From positions 124,001 to 188,000 of the forward strand of contig VGRF01000002.1 in the NCBI GenBank assembly GCA_016875395.1: a DNA stretch of 64,000 nucleotides. The letters are read 5' to 3'. Origin of the DNA: Deltaproteobacteria bacterium (GTDB lineage Bacteria > Myxococcota_A > UBA9160 > UBA6930). Under the pieces are notes generated by a model, which saw only the letters and a list, made by a program, of their open reading frames with translations, was not told where the DNA came from and searched no databases. Of the stretch, positions 3,022 through 41,109 are shown piece by piece (the stretch's first letter is position 1; every line of letters begins with the position of its first letter). The position numbers and the translations under genes were made by a program.

Positions 3022-4511
<1,490 letters not shown>

Positions 4512-4515
<4 letters not shown>

Positions 4516-5585
4516 GCGATCAGCTCGGCAACGAGCTTTGCGATGCGCTCGCCCGCTTTGCCGTCGCCGAACGGATTCTGCCAGTGCCCGCGGCGGCCGA
4601 GCAGCGCCCTCGTGGCGTCGAGGATCGCATCCGCGCTCACGCCTGCGATGCGCGCGGCGCCGACGTGCACGGCCTCGGGACGCTCGGTCGTCTCGCGCAG
4701 AATCACGCACGGCACGCCCAGCACGCAGGCTTCTTCCTGGACGCCGCCCGAATCGGTCAGCACGAGCGCCGCGCTGCGATGCAGCTGCATGAACTCCACG
4801 TAGCCAGCCGGCGGAATCGCGCGCACGCGCTTGCCGAGCGCGACTCCCACCTCCGCGAGCCGCTGCTGCGTGCGCGGGTGCAGCGGCGCGACGACGGGCA
4901 TGCCCGCATGCTCGGCCGCGAGCTCGAGTCCGCGGAAGACATCGCGCAGCGCTGCGTCGTCCTCGACCGTCTCGCGCCGATGCACGGTCGCGAGCAGGAA
5001 TTCGCCAGGCGCGACGACGAAGCTCGACAAGTCTGGCGCAGGCAGGCGCGCGAGCTGTCGGTGGAGCTCGTCCACGACGGTGTTTCCGGTGACCGCGATC
5101 TGCCCCGGGACGTGCTCGCCCAGCAAGTTCGAGCGCGAGAGCTCGGTCGGCGCACACAGCAGTTGCGCGAACGCATCGCACTCGCGGCGATTGTGCTCCT
5201 CCGCCATGCGCAGGTCGCCGCAGCGCAGGCCCGCCTCGACGTGCACGACCGGGATGCCCGCGTCGAGGCCGCCGAAGGCGGCGCCGAGCGTCGAGTTCGT
5301 GTCGCCCTGCACGACGATCGCGCGGGCGCGCTTCGCTTCGAGCACTTCGCGCACCGCGGCGCGCGTGCGTGTGAGCTGCTCTTCGCGCGCGCCACCGCGC
5401 ACGTCGAGCCGCACGTCGGGCTTCTCCAGCTCGAGCTGCGCGAAGAACAGGCCGTCGAGCGCCCAGTCGTAGTGCTGGCCCGTGTGCAGCACGAACGAGT
5501 CGAAGCCGAGCGTGCGGCACGCGCGGATCACCGGGGCCATCTTCACGACTTCGGGCCGAACCCCGATCACGAGCGCGACGCTCAT
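4512..5585 (-). CDS. wecB: UDP-N-acetylglucosamine 2-epimerase (non-hydrolysing)
   Basis: Interconverts UDP-GlcNAc and UDP-ManNAc for surface polysaccharide. The 357-residue protein has the expected marks: RPEVVKMAPVI near the N-terminus, HTGQHYD, the VQGDTNSTLGAAF nucleotide segment, HVEAGLRC, HRRET, and LTDSGGVQEEA followed by the RETTERPEAV signature. The N-terminal GTRPE is VRPE here. The ATG at 5585 overlaps the upstream glycosyltransferase stop by four bases, so the two are translationally coupled. It is the last gene of a three-gene minus-strand run with the flavoprotein and GT2. Confidence 0.93.
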
Positions 5586-6349: not shown

Positions 6350-7677
6350 CGACGCTCTCCGGCGAGATCGGCGGCGATCTCAGCCACCGCTTCGTCCACC
6401 ATCTCGCAGCACGCGTTCCACGAGTTGACGCGCGGATAGAGCTGCGACGTGCTCGTCAGGTAGAGACGGCCGGGCACGGCCACGTGCGGAGGCTTCTTCT
6501 TGGCGTAGCCGGTCGTCCACATCGGCTCGACGAAGGGCGCGCGGAACAGGTAGCGACCGACGATCGCGCCGCGCGCTTCCGGGTGAATCCGGCACAGGTC
6601 GGCTTCGTAGCGCGCGAGCAGCTCCGAATCGGGCAAGCCGTAGAGCTCGCTCGTGCGGTGCGTGTAGTTCACCGTGTAGTGGACGTGGAGCCCGCGCGTG
6701 CGCTCGAGCGGCACGACGCGCGACATCGCGATCAGGCCTTGTGAGGTCGCGCCGCAGTCGACCCAGGGCGCCCAGTAGTACGGAGTGAGCGCGCGATCCG
6801 TGATGAACACGCCGCTCACCACGCCTTGGTAGTCGAGCGCGAGGTCTGCGATCGCCGGCGGCAAGGCGCAGTCTTTCGCGAGGCGCTGAAACATCGGAAG
6901 GGGGAGAGTGGAGACCACGGCGTCGTGCTGCGCGCTCCGGCCGTCCCCGAACGCGACTCGCACGCTGCGCCCCTCGATGGCGAGCGCTGCGACCGGGCTC
7001 TTCGTGTGCAGCGGCGCGCCGCGAGCGACGAGGTCCTGCGCGAACGCGTCGATCAGCGAGCGATAGCCGCCGAGCAGGCAGCCCTTCTCCTCGCGCGAGA
7101 CGTTCTTCTCGCGATGCATGCGCGTCGTGAGCCAGAGCGCAGGGAGCGCGGGGTAGTGGTCACCGATCTTTGCCGCGAGCAGCGGCTTCCAGATCAGCTC
7201 GAACGCGCGCGGCCCGGCGATCTTGCGCACGAAGTCGGCGGCAGTCACGCCGTCGAGCCCCTCGCGCGTGCCGGCGAGCCGCGCGTACACGGCGATCAGA
7301 CCGAGGCGAACGCGGTCGATCCAGCCCAACGGCGCAAAGCGAAGCAGGTCGAGGGGGGTGTTCAGCGGGTAGGTCGTCTCGCGAACGGGGAAGCCCATGC
7401 CCGTCGAGCTCCAGCGCAGCTCGTAGGCGAGCCCGAGCTCCTGCACGTGGGCGAGCAGGGCCGCGTCGATCGGCAGCATGCAGTGATAGAACTTCTCGAG
7501 CTCGAGCCCGTCGTGGCTGAAGGTGCCGCCGAGACCGCCGAGCCGTTCCTCGGCCTCATACAGCGTGACGGCATGGCCGCGCTGCTGAAGACGCCGCGCG
7601 GTCGCCAGCCCGGAGATCCCGCCGCCCAGAATCGCTACGTCCAAGACCGACCTCGTGTGCGGAGGCACCTGCCGCAT
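6346..7677 (-). CDS. FAD-dependent NAD(P)-binding oxidoreductase, amine-oxidase/protoporphyrinogen-oxidase-like
   Basis: A flavoprotein of about 444 residues. The dinucleotide-binding fold is plain: VAILGGGISGLATARRLQQ followed by the ERLGGLGGTF FAD-pyrophosphate motif. A C-terminal FAD segment (RLYLTSTSQLYPRVNSWN) closes the domain. This family is often found in cell-surface polysaccharide clusters, where its substrate is usually unproven. I placed the start at ATG 7677 because earlier in-frame codons would overlap the divergent deacetylase; a TTG/GTG a few codons further in is also possible. It heads the minus-strand operon with GT2 and wecB. A role in sugar or lipid-carrier modification is inferred from the neighbours. 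Confidence 0.8.
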   Translation of the reverse strand: MRQVPPHTRSVLDVAILGGGISGLATARRLQQRGHAVTLYEAEERLGGLGGTFSHDGLELEKFYHCMLPIDAALLAHVQELGLAYELRWSSTGMGFPVRETTYPLNTPLDLLRFAPLGWIDRVRLGLIAVYARLAGTREGLDGVTAADFVRKIAGPRAFELIWKPLLAAKIGDHYPALPALWLTTRMHREKNVSREEKGCLLGGYRSLIDAFAQDLVARGAPLHTKSPVAALAIEGRSVRVAFGDGRSAQHDAVVSTLPLPMFQRLAKDCALPPAIADLALDYQGVVSGVFITDRALTPYYWAPWVDCGATSQGLIAMSRVVPLERTRGLHVHYTVNYTHRTSELYGLPDSELLARYEADLCRIHPEARGAIVGRYLFRAPFVEPMWTTGYAKKKPPHVAVPGRLYLTSTSQLYPRVNSWNACCEMVDEAVAEIAADLAGERR

Positions 7678-7732
7678 GTGATTCGCGTCACCCGAACTGA
7701 GTGGTTCGGGACTCACGGAGGTGACGCCGAAG

Positions 7733-8635
7733 TTGAAGCGCATTCCCGCGACGCTGAGTGTCGATGTCGACCCCGTAGATGCTCACCTCGCGGGCTACGG
7801 AGTCATCGGCCAGCCGCCCGACTCAGCCTGCTACGAGCGCGCGGTCCCGCGGCTGCTCGAGGCCTTCGCTGCACACGGGGTGCGCGCGACCTTCTTCTGG
7901 GTTGCGCGCGATGCCGAGCGCAGCGCCGCAGCGCTGCGAGCCGTCGTCGCAGCGGGCCACGAGGTCGCGAGCCACTCGCTGACCCACGCCGAAGCCTGGC
8001 GCAACGCTGGCTCCGCCGAGGTTGCGCACGAGTTGCGCGAGTCGAAGCAGCGCCTCGAACAATGCGCCGGGGCCTCTGTGGTGGGGTTTCGCTCGCCGGG
8101 ATGGCACGGTCCGCGCGGTCTCCACGAGGAGCTCGCGCGAGCCGGCTATCGCTACGACGCCTCCTCGTTCCCGTCGCCGCTGCTCGGCGCGATGAGCGCC
8201 CTGTTGTTCTTGGGCAGCCGAGGGCGGCGCCGCGTTCCGCTCGGGGCGGGGCAATGGTTCGCGCCGAGAGCGCCTTCGCAGCTCGCGCGCGGCCTCACGG
8301 AGTTCCCGGTGAGCGTGACGCGCCGACTGCGTTTCCCCGTCTACCACACGCTGCGCTACTCGGTTTCGAGCGCGCGCTTCGAGCGCCTCCTCGAGGCGCT
8401 CGCTCGCGAGGGCCACGAGTTGTCGTATCCGCTGCACGCCGTGGATGCGCTGGGCCTCCGGGAGGATGGCATCGAGCAGCGGCTCGCCCGTCACCCGGGG
8501 ATGTCCATGGCGCTCGAGGAAAAGCTGAGTCTTCTCTACTCTACGCTGCGCGCGATCGCGGAGAGATTCTCGCCCGCCCCGTACTGCCAGCGCCTCGCAA
8601 CGCTCGGGCACGTGGGGGAGCCAGCGAGCGCATGA
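7733..8635 (+). CDS. Polysaccharide deacetylase (NodB homology)
   Basis: Removes N-acetyl groups from a sugar polymer or lipid-linked sugar. NodB motif 1 is present as TLSVDVDPVD, with the second Asp as metal ligand. Motif 2 is ASHSLTHAE, followed by a GFRSPGWHGP segment equivalent to the arginine/aspartate motif 3. It is about 300 residues long. I prefer TTG 7733, because a full GGAGGTGA lies eight bases upstream; GTG 7721 sits directly on that ribosome site. The stop overlaps the next gene's ATG (8632) by four bases, so it forms an operon with the GT-C transferase. It is divergent from the flavoprotein operon. Cytosolic or exported location is unclear; no signal peptide is seen. Confidence 0.85.
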   Translation: MKRIPATLSVDVDPVDAHLAGYGVIGQPPDSACYERAVPRLLEAFAAHGVRATFFWVARDAERSAAALRAVVAAGHEVASHSLTHAEAWRNAGSAEVAHELRESKQRLEQCAGASVVGFRSPGWHGPRGLHEELARAGYRYDASSFPSPLLGAMSALLFLGSRGRRRVPLGAGQWFAPRAPSQLARGLTEFPVSVTRRLRFPVYHTLRYSVSSARFERLLEALAREGHELSYPLHAVDALGLREDGIEQRLARHPGMSMALEEKLSLLYSTLRAIAERFSPAPYCQRLATLGHVGEPASA

Positions 8636-31897: not shown

Positions 31898-32446
31898 CTA
31901 CCGAAGCGGACTGCGCGCGAGCCATGCCGCGCGCGTGAGCTCGAAGATGTCGTCGTTCTCGGCGAAGTCCTTGCGCGCGTGTAGGAAGCCGAGGCGCTGC
32001 GCGAGCCCGGCCGACGCGCGGTTGTCGAAGTGGATCTCGGCTTGGAGTCGCGCGACTCCCCAGACCTCGAAGAGGTGCGCCACCAACGCCGCGACGGCCT
32101 CGCGCGCGTAGCCGCGTCGCTGATGCGCAGCGCCGATCACGTAGGCGATCGAGCCGCCCTCGCCGCGCAGAGTCGCCTGCGTGAAGCCGATCGCCTCTCG
32201 CGAATCCCGCAGCCGCAGGATCCAGTTGAGCCAATGCTGAGCGCCGTCCGGGCTGCGCCCGCCCGCGAGGAACGCGTACTCGCGCTCCAGCGCCGCGACG
32301 CTTTCGGGCGGCCCGCCCGGCATGTGCGCGTAGAGCCGCGCATCGCTCAGCACGGGAAACATCGCCGAGGCGTGTTCGCCGCGGACGGGTTCGCAAAGGA
32401 GCCGCGCTGTCTCGATCTGCGCGAAGCGCGCATCGCGCTCGCTCAC
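31898..32446 (-). CDS. GNAT N-acetyltransferase (RimJ/RimL type)
   Basis: A 182-residue acetyl-CoA-dependent N-acetyltransferase. The N-terminus IETARLLCEPVRGEH is typical of the RimJ/RimL group, as is the central IAYVIGAAHQRRGYAREAVAALVAHLF, whose Q/RxxGxG/A loop binds acetyl-CoA. IHFDNRASAGLAQRLGF closes the fold. The substrate is unknown. GTG 32446 overlaps the selB stop by four bases, so the gene is co-translated with selB. That linkage does not by itself imply a role in selenoprotein synthesis. Confidence 0.88.
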   Translation of the reverse strand: MSERDARFAQIETARLLCEPVRGEHASAMFPVLSDARLYAHMPGGPPESVAALEREYAFLAGGRSPDGAQHWLNWILRLRDSREAIGFTQATLRGEGGSIAYVIGAAHQRRGYAREAVAALVAHLFEVWGVARLQAEIHFDNRASAGLAQRLGFLHARKDFAENDDIFELTRAAWLARSPLR

Positions 32447-34365
32447 TTCGCGCGCCGCTTCAGCACGCGCACTTCGCCGCGGCGCACGGTGAGCTGCTCC
32501 GTGTCGAACAGCTCCATCAGCGGCACGACGAACTTGCGCGTGCCGCCGATCAGCTCCTTGTAGGCCGCGGTGCCGATTTCGCCGTGCGCTTCGAGATGGG
32601 CGACGACTCGCGTCCGCAGCGCGGCGACGGCGCTCACATCGAACCACAGCTCGCCCGGCGCGCGCACGAGCGCGCCTTCGCGCTCGAGATGCGCGAGCAC
32701 CTCGCGCAGCTCCGCCTCGCTCGCGCGCAGCTCCGCTTCCCACTCGCGCAGCGTGCGCGGCGCGAGACCCGCCTCGCGCGCGCCCGCGCGCAGCCTCGCG
32801 GCGAGCTCCTGCTCGCGCGCAGCGAGCCGCGGCGCGAAGTCAGCGCGGCGCACGAGCTCGCCTTCGACCGCGACTTCTCCGCGCGCTGCGAGCTGTGCGA
32901 GCGCGCGCTCGTAAAGCGCGGGCGCAGCGTTCTCGGGCAGCGCACCGCGCAGCGTTCCCTTCGGCATGCCCGGCTTGATCGGGTTCGCGGCGTGAAACGC
33001 AGCGAGAGCCTCCGCGCAGCGGGACTCCGCCTGCGACACGAGCTCGGTCGACGCGAACACGTCTGCAGCGAGCGCGACGATCTTGCCGCTCTCCTCGGCG
33101 CTCGTGAGCGCTGAAGCGAGCGCCGCAGGCAGGAGCCCGCTCTGCGTGCGCAGCGCCTCGAGCGACATGCCCGCGAATCCGGAGCGAGCGACGCGCTGCG
33201 CCACGCCTTCGGTCGCATCGCCCCGGGCGAGCACTTCGAGGCCGCGCGCGAGAGCGCGGTCGCTGCGCCGCCGGTGCGGCGGCGCGACGTCGAGGATCTC
33301 GCCGCCACCGAGCGTCGCGCCCGAGGCGAAGCCGCGCACGACGAAGCGATCACCGGGCAGTAGTGCGAGCGCGCCGTCGTCGAGATGGATGCGCGCGAAC
33401 GAGCGCGACCCCGGCTCGAAGAAGTCTCCGCCGACGGGCGCGACGTGCGCGCGCACCGCAGCGGTGCCCACCAGCAGCTCGCACGCGACCGGCTTGGGTC
33501 CGCTGTGCGGCGCGGTCGCGAGCCAGCGCAGTGAAGCATCGAACGTGCTCGACGGCGCGAGTGAGCCGGGCGCTGCGACGAGCATCCCGCGCGCGAGATC
33601 CGCGAGCGCGATGCCCTGCAGGTTCACCGCGCAGCGCGAGCCCGGCTCGAGCCGCTCCGCGCTCGCGCCGAAGCTCTGCAGCCCGCGCACGCGCGCACGT
33701 GCGCCGCCGGGGAAGAGCTCGACCGCATCTCCCGCAGTGAGCTCGGCGCCTGCGAGCGTTCCCGTGACGACCGAGCCGAAGCCGCGCATCTCGAAGCAGC
33801 GATCCACCCAGAGCCGCGCGGGGCCCGCGCGCCTCGCTCGCTCGCGCGCCTGCTCCGCCGCGCGCACGAGGGCGCTGCGCAGCTCCGCGATGCCCGCGCC
33901 CGTCGTCGCGGACACGCGCAGCACGTCAGCGCTCGCGAGCGACGTGTCCGCGAGCAGATCGCGCACCTCGGTTTCGGCGAGGTCCGCGACGTCGGCGTCG
34001 GCAAGATCGCTCTTCGTCAGCGCGACGACGCCGTGCGCGATCCCGAGCAAGTCGATGATCGCCAGGTGCTCGCGCGTCTGCGGCATCGCGCCTTCGTCCG
34101 CGGCGACGACGAGCAGCACGAAGTCGATCCCCGTCGCGCCCGACACCATCGTGCGCACGAGCCCCTCATGCCCCGGCACGTCGACGACGCCGATCGTGAG
34201 CCCGGGCGCGAGCGCGAGCGGCGCGAACCCGAGCTCGATCGTGATGCCGCGCGCCTTCTCCTCGGGCAGCCGATCCGTGTCGACGCCCGTGAGCGCGCGC
34301 ACGAGCGTGGTCTTGCCGTGATCGATGTGACCCGCGGTGCCGAGGATGAGGTTGTTACGGGACAT
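32443..34365 (-). CDS. selB: Selenocysteine-specific elongation factor
   Basis: GTPase that delivers Sec-tRNA to the ribosome at UGA codons with a SECIS hairpin. The N-terminus LILGTAGHIDHGKTTLVRALTGVDTDRLPEEK with the ARGITIELGFAPL switch, DVPGHE (G3) and TKSD (G4) identifies an EF-Tu-like domain of the SelB type. Domains II/III follow, and the C-terminal half has winged-helix repeats ending EIGTAAYKELIGGTRKFVVPLMELFD, the SECIS-binding part. It is about 640 residues long. ATG 34365 is my start; a GTG nine bases earlier is possible. The upstream DNA contains two further copies of the first 48 or so bases (see repeat). No selA, selC or selD is in the window. Confidence 0.93.
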   Translation of the reverse strand: MSRNNLILGTAGHIDHGKTTLVRALTGVDTDRLPEEKARGITIELGFAPLALAPGLTIGVVDVPGHEGLVRTMVSGATGIDFVLLVVAADEGAMPQTREHLAIIDLLGIAHGVVALTKSDLADADVADLAETEVRDLLADTSLASADVLRVSATTGAGIAELRSALVRAAEQARERARRAGPARLWVDRCFEMRGFGSVVTGTLAGAELTAGDAVELFPGGARARVRGLQSFGASAERLEPGSRCAVNLQGIALADLARGMLVAAPGSLAPSSTFDASLRWLATAPHSGPKPVACELLVGTAAVRAHVAPVGGDFFEPGSRSFARIHLDDGALALLPGDRFVVRGFASGATLGGGEILDVAPPHRRRSDRALARGLEVLARGDATEGVAQRVARSGFAGMSLEALRTQSGLLPAALASALTSAEESGKIVALAADVFASTELVSQAESRCAEALAAFHAANPIKPGMPKGTLRGALPENAAPALYERALAQLAARGEVAVEGELVRRADFAPRLAAREQELAARLRAGAREAGLAPRTLREWEAELRASEAELREVLAHLEREGALVRAPGELWFDVSAVAALRTRVVAHLEAHGEIGTAAYKELIGGTRKFVVPLMELFDTEQLTVRRGEVRVLKRRAK

Positions 34366-34584
34366 CGAAGCCACTGTCCGATCTCCGCTCGGCTTCGCCT
34401 CGCTGCGCGCCGCTTGGCGGCTTGCCGCCGTGATCGATGTGGCCCGCGGTGCCGAGGATGAGGTTGCTACGCGTCATCGAAGCCACTGTCCGATCTCCGC
34501 TCGGCTTCGCCTCGCTGCGCGCCGCTTCGCGGCTTGCTGCCGTGATCGATGTGGCCCGCGGTGCCGAGGATGAGGTTGTTACGG
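34319..34584. repeat. 112-bp tandem repeat made of the selB 5' end plus a REP-like insert
   Basis: Units begin at 34319, 34431 and 34543 (the third is partial, to about 34584), exactly 112 bases apart. Each unit starts with the complement of the selB codons for NNLILGTAGHIDHG, including a copy of the start region. It then runs through a CGGCTTCGCCTCGCTGCGCG element. Unit 1 is the functional selB start. Units 2 and 3 encode short truncated copies beginning MTRSNLILG and MTTPALRNNLILG that leave the SelB sequence right after HIDHG. Because 112 is not a multiple of three, the copies are not one reading frame. Confidence 0.92.
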
Positions 34585-34694: not shown

Positions 34695-34979
34695 ATGGCG
34701 AAAGAGAGAATCATCGGAGTTCGCGAGCTGCGGGAACGGCTGAGCGATTATCTCGAGCTCGTTGCGAACGGGGAGTCGCTCACGATCGGAACGCGCAAAG
34801 CCGCGGTTGCGCGGCTCGTGCCCGCAGCGCCGCTGAGCGAGGGCGAAGCGTTGGATCGGCTCGCGGCGGAGGGACGAATTCAGAAGCCGCGTGGGAAGCT
34901 CCGCCTGCGCGGGCCCGTGAAGCTGCGCAAGCGGCAAACGAAGTCGGTCTCAGACCAAGTCGTCGAGGATCGGCGATGA
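34695..34979 (+). CDS. Type II antitoxin, Phd/YefM family
   Basis: A 94-residue antitoxin. The N-terminal half, MAKERIIGVRELRERLSDYL through ESLTIGTRKAAVARLVP, is the Phd/YefM DNA-binding fold. The basic C-terminal half (about 60-94) is presumably disordered and wraps the toxin. Its stop overlaps the toxin ATG by four bases, the classical antitoxin-first order. A perfect palindrome lies upstream. It is transcribed away from selB and converges with serS through the toxin gene. Confidence 0.9.
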   Translation: MAKERIIGVRELRERLSDYLELVANGESLTIGTRKAAVARLVPAAPLSEGEALDRLAAEGRIQKPRGKLRLRGPVKLRKRQTKSVSDQVVEDRR

Positions 34980-35404
34980 TCCTCTACCTCGACACGAGCG
35001 CGCTGGTGAAGCTCTATGTCGAGGAAGCGGGCTCCGCGCGGACTCGCGAGCTCGTCGATCGCTCCGACGGCGCCTACACGTCACGGATCAGCTACGTCGA
35101 GGCGCGTGCCGCATTTGCGCGGCGGCTACGCGCGCAGGCGATGAGCCGCCGCGAACACGGCGACATCGTGAGTAGGTTCGAGGCGGGCTGGAGCGGCTTC
35201 GGCGTCGTCGAGCTCTCCGACCCACTCGCGCGAAGCGCGGGCACGCTCGCCGAGAAGCACGGCCTACGGGCGCTCGACGCGACCCAGCTGGCAGCGGCGC
35301 TCGAGCTGCGCACGGGGTCTGTGCCGGTCGACTTCGCTTGTTTCGACCGCCGCCTTGCGCACGCTGCGCGCGAGGAACGCCTGCCGCTCGCAGCGAGCCT
35401 CTAG
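34976..35404 (+). CDS. vapC: PIN-domain ribonuclease toxin, VapC family
   Basis: A 142-residue toxin expected to cleave RNA, often tRNA. PIN acidic residues are visible: D6 in ILYLDTSALVKL, Glu in SRISYVEARAAF, and Asp in RALDATQLAAAL, with a last Asp in FACFDRRL. ATG 34976 overlaps the antitoxin stop. The 3' end overlaps the serS stop by four bases on the other strand. It is paired with a Phd-type rather than AbrB/VapB-type antitoxin, a common mixed pairing. Confidence 0.9.
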   Translation: MILYLDTSALVKLYVEEAGSARTRELVDRSDGAYTSRISYVEARAAFARRLRAQAMSRREHGDIVSRFEAGWSGFGVVELSDPLARSAGTLAEKHGLRALDATQLAAALELRTGSVPVDFACFDRRLAHAAREERLPLAASL

Positions 35405-38880: not shown

Positions 38881-39267
38881 ATGCTCGCAACGCACGACAT
38901 CGTCGCGATCCAGCAGCTCACGGCGCGCTACGGCCACCTGGTCGACGCGCGCGAGTGGAAGCAGCTCGGCGAGATCTTCACGAGCGACGGCGTGTTCGAC
39001 GTCACCGCCTTCAACGCCGGCCGCCACGAAGGCCTCGCCGCCGTGATCGCGTTCTTCGAGCGCGCCGCGCATCCGGCCGCGCACCACGCGACCAATCTCT
39101 ACGTGTACGAGGAAGGCACGATCGTGCGCGCGCTCAGCAAGTACGCCGTGCCGAGCGAAGGCGGCAAGCTGTTCGGCGGCGACTACCGCGACACGCTGAT
39201 GCGCACCGCGAACGGGTGGCGAATCAAGGAGCGCGTCGTGACGACGAGGTGGCCGGCGCGGCCCTAA
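38881..39267 (+). CDS. SnoaL-like (NTF2-fold) protein
   Basis: A 128-residue cone-shaped NTF2-like protein. DIVAIQQLTARYGHLVDAREWKQL and FTSDGVFDV are typical of the SnoaL_4 group, and the C-terminal RDTLMRTANGWRIKERVV closes the sheet. Members include dehydratases, isomerases and non-enzymatic binders, so function is open. Start ATG 38881 has a GGGAG site upstream. It follows the symporter gene closely and converges on the nucleotidyltransferase gene with a four-base stop overlap. Confidence 0.85.
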   Translation: MLATHDIVAIQQLTARYGHLVDAREWKQLGEIFTSDGVFDVTAFNAGRHEGLAAVIAFFERAAHPAAHHATNLYVYEEGTIVRALSKYAVPSEGGKLFGGDYRDTLMRTANGWRIKERVVTTRWPARP

Positions 39268-39809
39268 CGAGCCTTCTCGCGCTTTCGCAGCTCGCGTCGA
39301 AACGCGCGGAACTTCTCGGCAGCGCGTTCCCCCTCGGACCAGCGCGCGATGCGGCTCAAGTCCACGTCGTGGCGCCGCGCGACCTCGAGCGCCTGCGCGA
39401 GCCCCTGCGCATCGTTCGAGTGATAGAACCAAGCGAGTCGATCCATCACGCAGTCGGTCGGCGTGAGCATTCGCAGCGTGCCGAGCTTCGTCTCCTTCTC
39501 CGCGAACTCGGTGATCGTGAGCTCCCCGATCTGAACCGGGCCGGGCGGGAGCTCGACGAGATAGGGCGTGCCGTCGTGAACCCAGTGTCGGCCCTGCCTG
39601 CGAAAGCCGAGTCCGTCCATCGCCGCATCGACCTTCCGGCCGAGGCCAGTTCGGATGAAGTCGAGGTCGAACGACTGGTACGCGTTGTCGGAGTAGATCG
39701 AGACGACGCTTCCGCCCGAGAGCACGGCCTCGATTCCGGCTTGGTCGAGCGCGGCGCAAATCAATCCAGCAAGGTCGGCGAGCGAGAGCTTCGGGTGGAT
39801 GCGACTCAA
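39264..39809 (-). CDS. Nucleotidyltransferase-fold protein paired with a winged-helix regulator
   Basis: A 181-residue protein with a minimal Pol-beta-type nucleotidyltransferase signature: GGS in AVLSGGSVVSIYSD, followed by the SFDLDFI DxD pair. It is shorter than AbiEii/MenT-type toxins. Start codon TTG 39809 overlaps the upstream wHTH stop by four bases (TTGA), so the two are translationally coupled. The regulator-first order and the operator palindrome ahead of the pair are like AbiEi/AbiEii or MNT-type toxin-antitoxin modules. Toxicity and target are inference. It could instead be a housekeeping NTase of unknown role. Confidence 0.7.
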   Translation of the reverse strand: MSRIHPKLSLADLAGLICAALDQAGIEAVLSGGSVVSIYSDNAYQSFDLDFIRTGLGRKVDAAMDGLGFRRQGRHWVHDGTPYLVELPPGPVQIGELTITEFAEKETKLGTLRMLTPTDCVMDRLAWFYHSNDAQGLAQALEVARRHDVDLSRIARWSEGERAAEKFRAFRRELRKREKAR

Positions 39810-40138
39810 CGCGGCTTGCCGCTGCGCCGCGGGCGCGTGCGCTGCGCGAAGTATCGCTCGCGCTCAGCGGCGGGCAGCAGCGCCAGCGCCTTCTGCAGGA
39901 GCGCGCTCAACTCGACGCGGAAGGCGAAGCGCGGGTTCCACGAGAAGACTCGCGTCTTGCCCTGGAGCCGGCTCGCGAGCACACCGCCAGCTTCGAGTCG
40001 CGCGAGCTGGCGCTGCACCATGCTGACCGGCATGTCGTCGAACGCGCGCGAGATCGCGAGCGCGTAACCCTCGCCGTACCGCTCCAGATAGAGCAGCACG
40101 CGCTCCGCGGACGGACTCCCGAAGAGACCTTCGAGCAT
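39806..40138 (-). CDS. Small winged-helix transcriptional regulator (antitoxin-like)
   Basis: A 110-residue protein with an ArsR/MarR-like winged helix: SAERVLLYLERYGEGYALAISRAF, MVQRQLARLEAGGVLASRLQGK (recognition helix and wing). A basic C-terminus ends RTRPRRSGKPR. ATG 40138 is preceded by GAGG with good spacing. A 38-bp palindrome lies 13-50 bases upstream, so it probably represses its own operon. Its partner gene encodes a nucleotidyltransferase-fold protein. Confidence 0.8.
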   Translation of the reverse strand: MLEGLFGSPSAERVLLYLERYGEGYALAISRAFDDMPVSMVQRQLARLEAGGVLASRLQGKTRVFSWNPRFAFRVELSALLQKALALLPAAERERYFAQRTRPRRSGKPR

Positions 40139-40150
40139 CGAAGCCTCAAC

Positions 40151-40188
40151 TACCTTGATTCCAGGTAACGTTACCTGAAATCAAGGTA
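40151..40188. promoter_or_regulatory. 38-bp operator-like palindrome
   Basis: The left arm TACCTTGATTCCAGGTAAC (40151-40169) and the right arm (40170-40188) are complementary at 18 of 19 positions, with no spacer (centre AACGTT). It is an A+T-rich island in G+C-rich DNA. It can also be read as nested half-sites, CCTTGATT outside and CAGGTAAC inside. The position suggests the autoregulatory site of the wHTH gene. Confidence 0.85.
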
Positions 40189-40227
40189 ATCGGCCTCGGG
40201 CCCAGAGACCTGGAGCGAAGGTCCGGT

Positions 40228-40530
40228 TCAGCGCTTCCCGATGTTCATCGTCTGCGAGATCACCGCGAAGCCCTCGGTCGCGGCGAGGCGCTTGCCGACC
40301 ACGGCCTGGTAGGCGGGCGACTTGTACCAAGCCTTCGCCTTGTCGACGGACTCGAACTCGATGATCACGGTTTGCTGGCCGGGCGGCTTGCCCTCGATCG
40401 TCTCCGACGCGACGTCGAAGCTGACGAGCTTTCCGCCGTGCGCGGCCACGGTGGGGCCGGCGCCTTGCGAGTACTCGCCGTAGAGGGCGGGGTTCTTAAC
40501 GACGTATTGAGCGATGAAGTAGGCAGGCAT
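40228..40530 (-). CDS. DUF1330 family protein
   Basis: A 100-residue dimeric alpha/beta-barrel-like protein. MPAYFIAQYVVKNPALYGEYS and the TVIIEFESVDKAKAWYKSPAYQAV segment are diagnostic of DUF1330, a stand-alone member of the ferredoxin-like dimeric alpha-beta fold. Function is unknown. It stands alone, divergent from the VOC gene. Confidence 0.9.
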   Translation of the reverse strand: MPAYFIAQYVVKNPALYGEYSQGAGPTVAAHGGKLVSFDVASETIEGKPPGQQTVIIEFESVDKAKAWYKSPAYQAVVGKRLAATEGFAVISQTMNIGKR

Positions 40531-40587
40531 GGATCGCGAGTTACCACACTCGGGATTCGTGCTTCAATGCGTTCCACGAGGGCGCGC

Positions 40588-41109
40588 ATGCAATCCGGAT
40601 TGATCCGCTACCCGATCCTCCAGTGGGCTTACGTCGTGAACGACGTCGAGGCGGCCTGCGCGAAGTGGACGCAGATGACCGGCGCCGGGCCGTTCTACGT
40701 GAGCCTGCATCACAAGGGCACGCACACGTATCGCGGGCGCGTGACGGAGCCCGATCTCAGCTACGCGTTCGGCTCGGTCGGCGACGTGCACGTGCAGCTG
40801 ATCCAGCAGCACTGCGACACGCCCTCCGTCTACCGCGATCTCTTCCCCCGCGGCAAGGAGGGCTTCCACCACTTCGCGCTGCTCGTGCCCGACTACGAGG
40901 CCGAGCGCGCGCGCTTCGTCGCCGCGGGCTGCCCCGTCGTGACGGAGCTCGTGTCGGCGGCGCGCGTCGGTTACGTCGACGCGCGCTCGTGGCTCGGCGC
41001 GTTCGTCGAGCTGTACGAGGACAACGCGCCGCTGCGCAAGATCTTCGCCTCGTGGAACGAGGAGCACGCGCGCTGGGACGGCGTGACCGAACCGATCCGG
41101 AAGCTCTGA
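40588..41109 (+). CDS. VOC-family protein (glyoxalase/epimerase-like)
   Basis: A 173-residue vicinal-oxygen-chelate protein. It begins YPILQWAYVVNDVEAACAKW, with GEGFHHFALLV-like KEGFHHFALLVPDYEAE as the second half and ARSWLGAFVELYED as the C-terminal metal-ligand strand (Glu). The pattern resembles methylmalonyl-CoA-epimerase-type or Glyoxalase_4 proteins. ATG 40588 is preceded by GAGGG; ATG 40567 would add seven residues. The cupin gene follows 36 bases downstream, probably in the same operon. Confidence 0.85.
   Translation: MQSGLIRYPILQWAYVVNDVEAACAKWTQMTGAGPFYVSLHHKGTHTYRGRVTEPDLSYAFGSVGDVHVQLIQQHCDTPSVYRDLFPRGKEGFHHFALLVPDYEAERARFVAAGCPVVTELVSAARVGYVDARSWLGAFVELYEDNAPLRKIFASWNEEHARWDGVTEPIRKL

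Follow-up and report, generated by a model that had tools for sequence, protein, structure and literature searches.

A putative AbiE/MenAT-like, autoregulated toxin-antitoxin-type family composed of a winged-helix protein and a nucleotidyltransferase

In the window, that is, the whole 64-kb stretch of DNA that was analysed, two small genes follow each other on the minus strand. The first (40138-39806, ATG start) encodes a winged helix-turn-helix (wHTH) protein of 110 aa, a putative and probable autorepressor and antitoxin. The second (39809-39264, TTG start) encodes a putative nucleotidyltransferase (NTase) of 181 aa, which is probably the toxin. The first-pass annotation had described an overlapping pair of a regulator and an NTase-fold gene, and both ORFs were found as described, with the stop codon of the wHTH gene and the start codon of the NTase gene sharing the TTGA sequence at 39806-39809 (minus strand). 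This overlap suggests translational coupling. A 4-base overlap of the NTGA type is present in 36 of 59 relatives, while the junction distance is from -1 to +4 in 17 of the 59; six cyanobacterial junctions have another type of overlap, with an NTase start that the script did not fix. The NTase may be translated from the shared message via termination-reinitiation at the NTGA overlap, and would thus be made in step with its wHTH partner.

A 38-bp palindrome (40151-40188, without strand) ends 12 bp from the ATG of the wHTH gene. It has the 19-nt arms claimed for it, with no spacer and 18 of 19 pairs formed (95% complementary), and is a putative double operator of the operon. Two putative sites of the form TACCT-N7-AGGTA make up this element, neither assigned to a strand; site 1 (40151-40167) is proximal to the wHTH start codon, and the centre of site 2 (40172-40188) is 21 bp from that of site 1. 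No other 38-bp palindrome of the window forms more than 15 pairs, and none of eight windows simulated by a Markov-1 model exceeded 16. The palindrome scores 17 when the 110 bp upstream are evaluated, against a maximum of 9 in 60 dinucleotide shuffles of this region. With one mismatch or fewer, TACCT-N7-AGGTA sites occur twice in the window versus 0.05 expected, and the operator pair, with up to three mismatches, occurs only once in the 4.5-Mb genome. The G+C content of the palindrome is 39%, that of the window 70%. Reading the palindrome as a single dimer site is disfavoured by the two-site architecture and the 21-bp spacing. The palindrome had also been placed at the expected promoter, which was not borne out: a sigma-70 consensus scan of 39000-40600 gave no site, and neither a terminator nor a promoter consensus was found in this region.

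Is the double operator common among the relatives? The best inverted repeat in each of 58 upstream regions (the window and 57 other loci) was compared with those of 60 dinucleotide shuffles of the same region. It exceeded all 60 shuffles in 37 regions and reached p<0.05 in 41, while in the other 17 it did not reach this level. Paired sites with exact 5-base arms, 20-24 bp apart, are present in 20 of the 58 regions, versus a mean of 1.2 and a maximum of 5 in 100 shuffled sets of 58. Within this range a spacing of 21 bp is the commonest, and three sites are present at some loci. The half-site letters vary between loci (ACCT, ACCCA, ACCAC, GAAC, etc.), but the geometry is constant, as expected if adjacent dimers occupied the same DNA face. 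This pattern suggests autorepression: the wHTH protein probably represses its own operon through the conserved double operator, its dimers binding two operators on the same DNA face, 21 bp or two helical turns apart. Two short palindromic sites with this spacing are a ready marker for further members.

The predicted structure of the wHTH protein (pLDDT 89.5) matches winged helices of the MarR, ArsR, PadR, and AspA types. Besides the winged helix it has two helices and a low-pLDDT tail, with no further effector domain. The basic C-terminal tail of the R-x-RPRR-x-GKP type (codons at 39809-39847, minus strand) is highly conserved; R100, R102, P103, R104, and K108 are invariant in 47 rows, and the mean pLDDT of residues 101-110 is 53. 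A PDB sequence search with the protein returned generic winged helices. All 47 wHTH members match the PADLOC model PDC-M05A (best E 2e-10), although residues 16-87 of the window protein align with profile positions 22-92 of 201, which is the winged-helix part only. Each of the AbiEi models listed matches one of the 47 members (E 0.01 and 0.02).

With the window NTase as a query, Pfam gave no family, PADLOC gave no match, and the PDB sequence search gave no credible relative. Weak matches to two Pfam NTase families of unassigned function, DUF2204 (18 of 46 members, best E 1.6e-4) and NTP_transf_5 (four of 46, best E 2.5e-4), were found among the members, but the window protein matches neither. 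The relatives have only weak PADLOC matches, to AbiEii and to models of unrelated systems (best E 0.001). The alignment of the members defines the motifs G32-G33, Y44-x-S46-x-D48-L49-D50, E86, R124, D133, and Q139. Thirteen residues (L30, G32, G33, Y44, S46, D48, L49, D50, G95, P117, D123, D133, and Q139) are invariant in all 46, position 86 is E or D in all, and R124 is present in 45. These conserved catalytic residues suggest an active nucleotidyltransferase of the polymerase-beta fold. The codons of S46-F47-D48-L49-D50 (39660-39674, minus strand) specify the metal site and a putative phospho-acceptor Ser. MenT1 is auto-phosphorylated at T39 within T39-x-D41-x-D43 (PMC11375011). S46 lies at the position of T39 and precedes the first catalytic Asp by two residues.

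A structure prediction had been proposed as a check, and the model (pLDDT 96.2) did show an NTase fold. It is nearest to MenT1 (Z 12.6, 4.3 A over 167 residues), a fungal protein (5uvd, Z 12.3), ANT(2'')-Ia (Z 11.6), and LnuA (Z 10.4), with weaker matches to MenT3 (Z about 9) and AbiEi (Z 8.7). Since Z differences under 1 are ties, toxin and antibiotic-modifying relatives are indistinguishable by fold; and since ANT(2'') and LnuA are among the fold neighbours, the fold is no proof of a toxin. It is conceivable, but unlikely, that the NTase modifies a small molecule as antibiotic-type adenylyltransferases do, the wHTH protein being a ligand- or stress-responsive repressor of a resistance or detoxification operon. 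In favour of this, ANT(2'')-Ia and LnuA rank high by fold (Foldseek E 9e-5 to 3e-3, Z 10-12), and two-gene detoxification operons of the ArsR type exist (PMC2701414). The identity to these two enzymes is 11-19%, and the NTase here is always paired with a wHTH protein. Against a detoxification operon, the wHTH protein has nothing that could serve as an effector domain beyond its winged helix, short helical part, and basic tail.

The MenAT1 and MenAT3 systems of Mycobacterium tuberculosis resemble the pair in the NTase fold, the two-gene layout, and the MenT1-like size. The S/T-x-D-x-D metal site of MenT toxins, with the acceptor residue two positions before the first Asp, was found in 46 of 46 members. 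In contrast, R37 of MenT1 is replaced by Tyr. K137 and D152 of MenT1, which I read as the motif III Lys and the motif IV Asp, are 15 residues apart, as are R124 and Q139; judged by this spacing only, the equivalents here are likely Arg and Gln. MenA1 has no wHTH and MenA3 is a two-domain protein, whereas the partner here is a MarR/ArsR-like wHTH protein with a basic tail. Furthermore, MenAT1 is reported not to autoregulate (PMC11375011), while a putative double operator is present here. Growth of E. coli was not affected by MenT1 (PMC10435456).

AbiE, a type IV toxin-antitoxin system, likewise combines a wHTH-bearing antitoxin with an NTase in a bicistronic operon with promoter repeats (the antitoxin role of the wHTH protein here is putative), and AbiEi represses its own operon (PMC7319586). 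The first-pass annotation had suggested an HMM check against AbiEii. The window NTase has no match to PF08843, which recovered one of the 46 members (E 0.04), and hhalign gave a probability of 1.2% against 14 local AbiEii sequences; on these grounds, membership in AbiE was rejected. The 110-aa wHTH protein lacks the separate C-terminal antitoxin domain of AbiEi. AbiEi binds 23-bp repeats as a monomer, whereas the sites here are short, of the dimer type, and 21 bp apart. Both proteins are smaller than classical AbiEi and AbiEii, as had been noted, but the size of the NTase is not unusual, since MenT1 chains are listed with only 176-195 residues. Most of AbiEi (6y8q) from residue 43 on matches the NTase model over 146 residues, in agreement with the DALI matches of Beck et al. 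AbiEi may be a fusion of a wHTH with an eroded NTase, and the pair described here could show the unfused, active state.

One scan of genome contigs with an NTase alignment gave 59 loci. In all of them, the gene immediately upstream of the NTase gene encodes a wHTH protein of this family (L020 and L066 are cut by a contig end). An NTase widespread without its wHTH partner, which had been named as the finding that would speak against a module, was thus not seen. The loci carry 13 NCBI phylum labels (the submitters' own; some bins may be contaminated), and several phyla are split in the tree of 46 NTases. Closest relatives with the module include MAGs titled Myxococcota, Deltaproteobacteria, or just bacterium. 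The NTase and wHTH trees co-vary (Mantel r 0.64, 45 rows; none of 2000 permutations as high), which is expected of genes travelling together. Of 282 genomes sampled from the phylum of the window, 15 have a match, which for four of them is partial (L012, L014, and L015) or distant (L013). In its family, five of 14 genomes have the module, and presence is split inside three genera. Thus, two general traits of toxin-antitoxin systems were found, namely two small coupled genes that are always together and a patchy, mobile distribution over family genomes, plasmids, and many phyla. Among viral contigs, 33 stretches fitted the pattern but none was a relative, and phages gave none. An actinobacterial contig (L060) has two wHTH-NTase copies about 4 kb apart (3419-4549 and 7536-8246).

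The neighbourhoods of the loci in the genome collection are many and unlike one another. It is very unlikely, though, that the NTase is a domesticated, non-toxic enzyme that modifies RNA or protein under autoregulation in a housekeeping or stress role. Such a role would suit these loci, which are not on obvious mobile elements, and one NTase frame (L054, 557-3277) reads through into an ATP-grasp/CoA-binding/Succ_CoA_lig protein (907 aa in all), whose downstream part I take to be of the ADP-forming acyl-CoA synthetase type; this join is a fusion, a frameshift, or an assembly join. Patchiness within genera, spread across phyla, and carriage on plasmids all argue against domestication. An empty insertion site could not be demonstrated: with the transporter P0006 and the glyoxalase-like P0007 as queries, each against 60 genomes from the order, none of 29 transporter loci kept from relatives carries the neighbours found in the window.

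In the window itself, a gene for a Phd/YefM-like antitoxin (34695-34979, plus strand; E 6e-6, just under the Pfam cut-off) overlaps a gene for a PIN-domain toxin (34976-35404, plus strand; E 8e-13). The two form a second, ordinary toxin-antitoxin pair, about 4 kb away from the wHTH and NTase genes. A 112-bp tandem repeat (34315-34583, 2.4 copies, 95% match) extends into the start of a gene that is presumably SelB-like (32443-34374, minus strand), so that the first codons of this gene appear duplicated.

Is a third gene part of the module? No recurrent one was found; when 1414 flanking ORFs were clustered, no cluster extended over more than three of the 59 loci. No HEPN family was named among the four nearest neighbours of the window module that were scanned, and an adjacent HEPN gene, as expected of a HEPN/MNT or PDC-M05 system, was not a recurrent neighbour in the 59 loci. 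PDC-M05, a candidate defence system of an NTase and a HEPN protein, resembles the module in that the wHTH protein is similar to the N-terminal part of PDC-M05A; in contrast, no NTase member matches PDC-M05. These results bear on the idea that the NTase plays an antitoxin-like part, comparable to that of MntA, which modifies HepT, or that the NTase and the wHTH protein together make up a split antitoxin of the AbiEi kind; in either case, the toxin would be encoded elsewhere. The match of the wHTH protein to PDC-M05A is in line with this idea, as is that of AbiEi to the NTase model (Z 8.7 over 146 residues); Beck et al. also place AbiEi nearest to the same adenylyltransferases and 5UVD (PMC7319586). 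Nevertheless, I consider it improbable, as no HEPN or third gene recurs and the HepT/MNT genes of Leptospira lie inside or beside broken copies.

Plasmids carry the module as well: 33 of 72,556 plasmid records match, of which 30 are from Leptospira, and the hosts are Leptospira, Bdellovibrio, Sulfurospirillum, and Sulfurimonas. Among the neighbours in the retrieved Leptospira regions are ParA/ParB, MazEF, Phd-PIN, HigBA, HepT/MNT, and an AbiJ-domain gene. This location in clusters of toxin-antitoxin and partition genes also speaks against a detoxification operon. On a Bdellovibrio plasmid, an integrase gene follows the wHTH-NTase pair. The plasmid members inspected are annotated as a hypothetical protein, a winged-helix protein, or an ArsR regulator.

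Some copies are decaying. The NTase gene is broken and the wHTH gene is whole in L012 (stop), L064 (frameshift), and L072, L073, and L074 (truncated), the NTases of the last two stopping within 100 nt of contig ends. Ten regions were taken from 44 Leptospira records with a trace of the NTase, and four types of the same imbalance were found: an IS5 in L131; a stop, a frameshift, and loss of the 3′ part in L132, L133, and L137; an interruption in L134; and a frameshift in L135. The reverse case, a frameshifted wHTH gene with an intact NTase gene, was found on two plasmids of one L. noguchii strain (L129 and L130). Both genes are damaged in L136, and L138 has an NTase remnant with no wHTH gene found. 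L044, whose NTase stops late, and the remnant L014 were kept outside the count. The tally is nine NTase events versus one wHTH event (p about 0.01, sign test by hand calculation), although p rises to about 0.06 and is not significant when the longer NTase gene is allowed for (also by hand). The genome scan started from NTase peptides and would therefore miss wHTH genes that stand alone. Loss of the NTase while the repressor is kept does not suit a detoxification operon, but this and the other counter-points are not conclusive. In L133, L136, and L137, MNT/HepT genes follow the wHTH gene closely and lie at or within the former position of the NTase; apparently, one toxin-antitoxin module has disrupted another.

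Taken together, I consider it fairly probable that the wHTH-NTase pair represents a putative AbiE/MenAT-like, autoregulated family of the toxin-antitoxin type. Counted for this reading were the constant pairing, the operators, the MenT1 fold, the conserved active site, the patchiness, the co-varying trees, the lack of a third gene, the Leptospira plasmid copies among toxin-antitoxin genes, and the broken NTases beside intact wHTH genes. Counted against it were the reported lack of autoregulation in MenAT1, the 17 of 58 regions without a significant repeat, and the absence of a sigma-70-like promoter. The L. noguchii plasmids count against a strict antitoxin role, unless coupling lowers the NTase level or another copy protects the cell. 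Of the layout first proposed, toxin-antitoxin or abortive infection, the two-gene toxin-antitoxin part holds, being probably autoregulated, patchy, and found on plasmids; the profiles do not make it AbiE. The module had also been called an undescribed defence or stress module. It is true that no family library names the pair, but the defence part gained no support from PADLOC, where the window NTase has no match and the wHTH protein matches chiefly the wHTH part of the candidate PDC-M05A, or from the viral and phage searches. No description of the pair was found in the literature searched, which is a weak negative because most subscription papers and all bioRxiv preprints lay outside the scope of the search.

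If the toxin-antitoxin reading holds, the fold suggests that the NTase most likely adds nucleotides to RNA, for example, to tRNA 3′ ends, like MenT1 and MenT3, and that the free NTase would arrest growth. The wHTH protein would hold the NTase inactive, probably via its invariant basic tail; speculatively, the tail might plug the acidic active site or promote modification of Ser46. The module may serve in plasmid or locus maintenance or in a response to stress or phage. A more specific proposal, which I put forward only tentatively and regard as rather doubtful in its full form, is that these modules form an unnamed family of NTase toxin-antitoxin systems spanning multiple phyla, where a separate MarR/ArsR-like repressor, unlike the two-domain AbiEi, reads a 21-bp-phased double operator and also neutralises the NTase via the invariant, disordered R-x-RPRR-x-GKP tail at or near Ser46. 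If the role of the tail is true, repression and antitoxicity might compete for one short tail. The double operator allows testing how a small wHTH protein can be a repressor and an antitoxin at once, and the module allows testing whether active-site Ser/Thr modification of NTase toxins extends beyond MenT. If true, the toxin-antitoxin reading would mean that a compact and broadly spread branch of NTase toxin-antitoxin systems has been overlooked by the family libraries.
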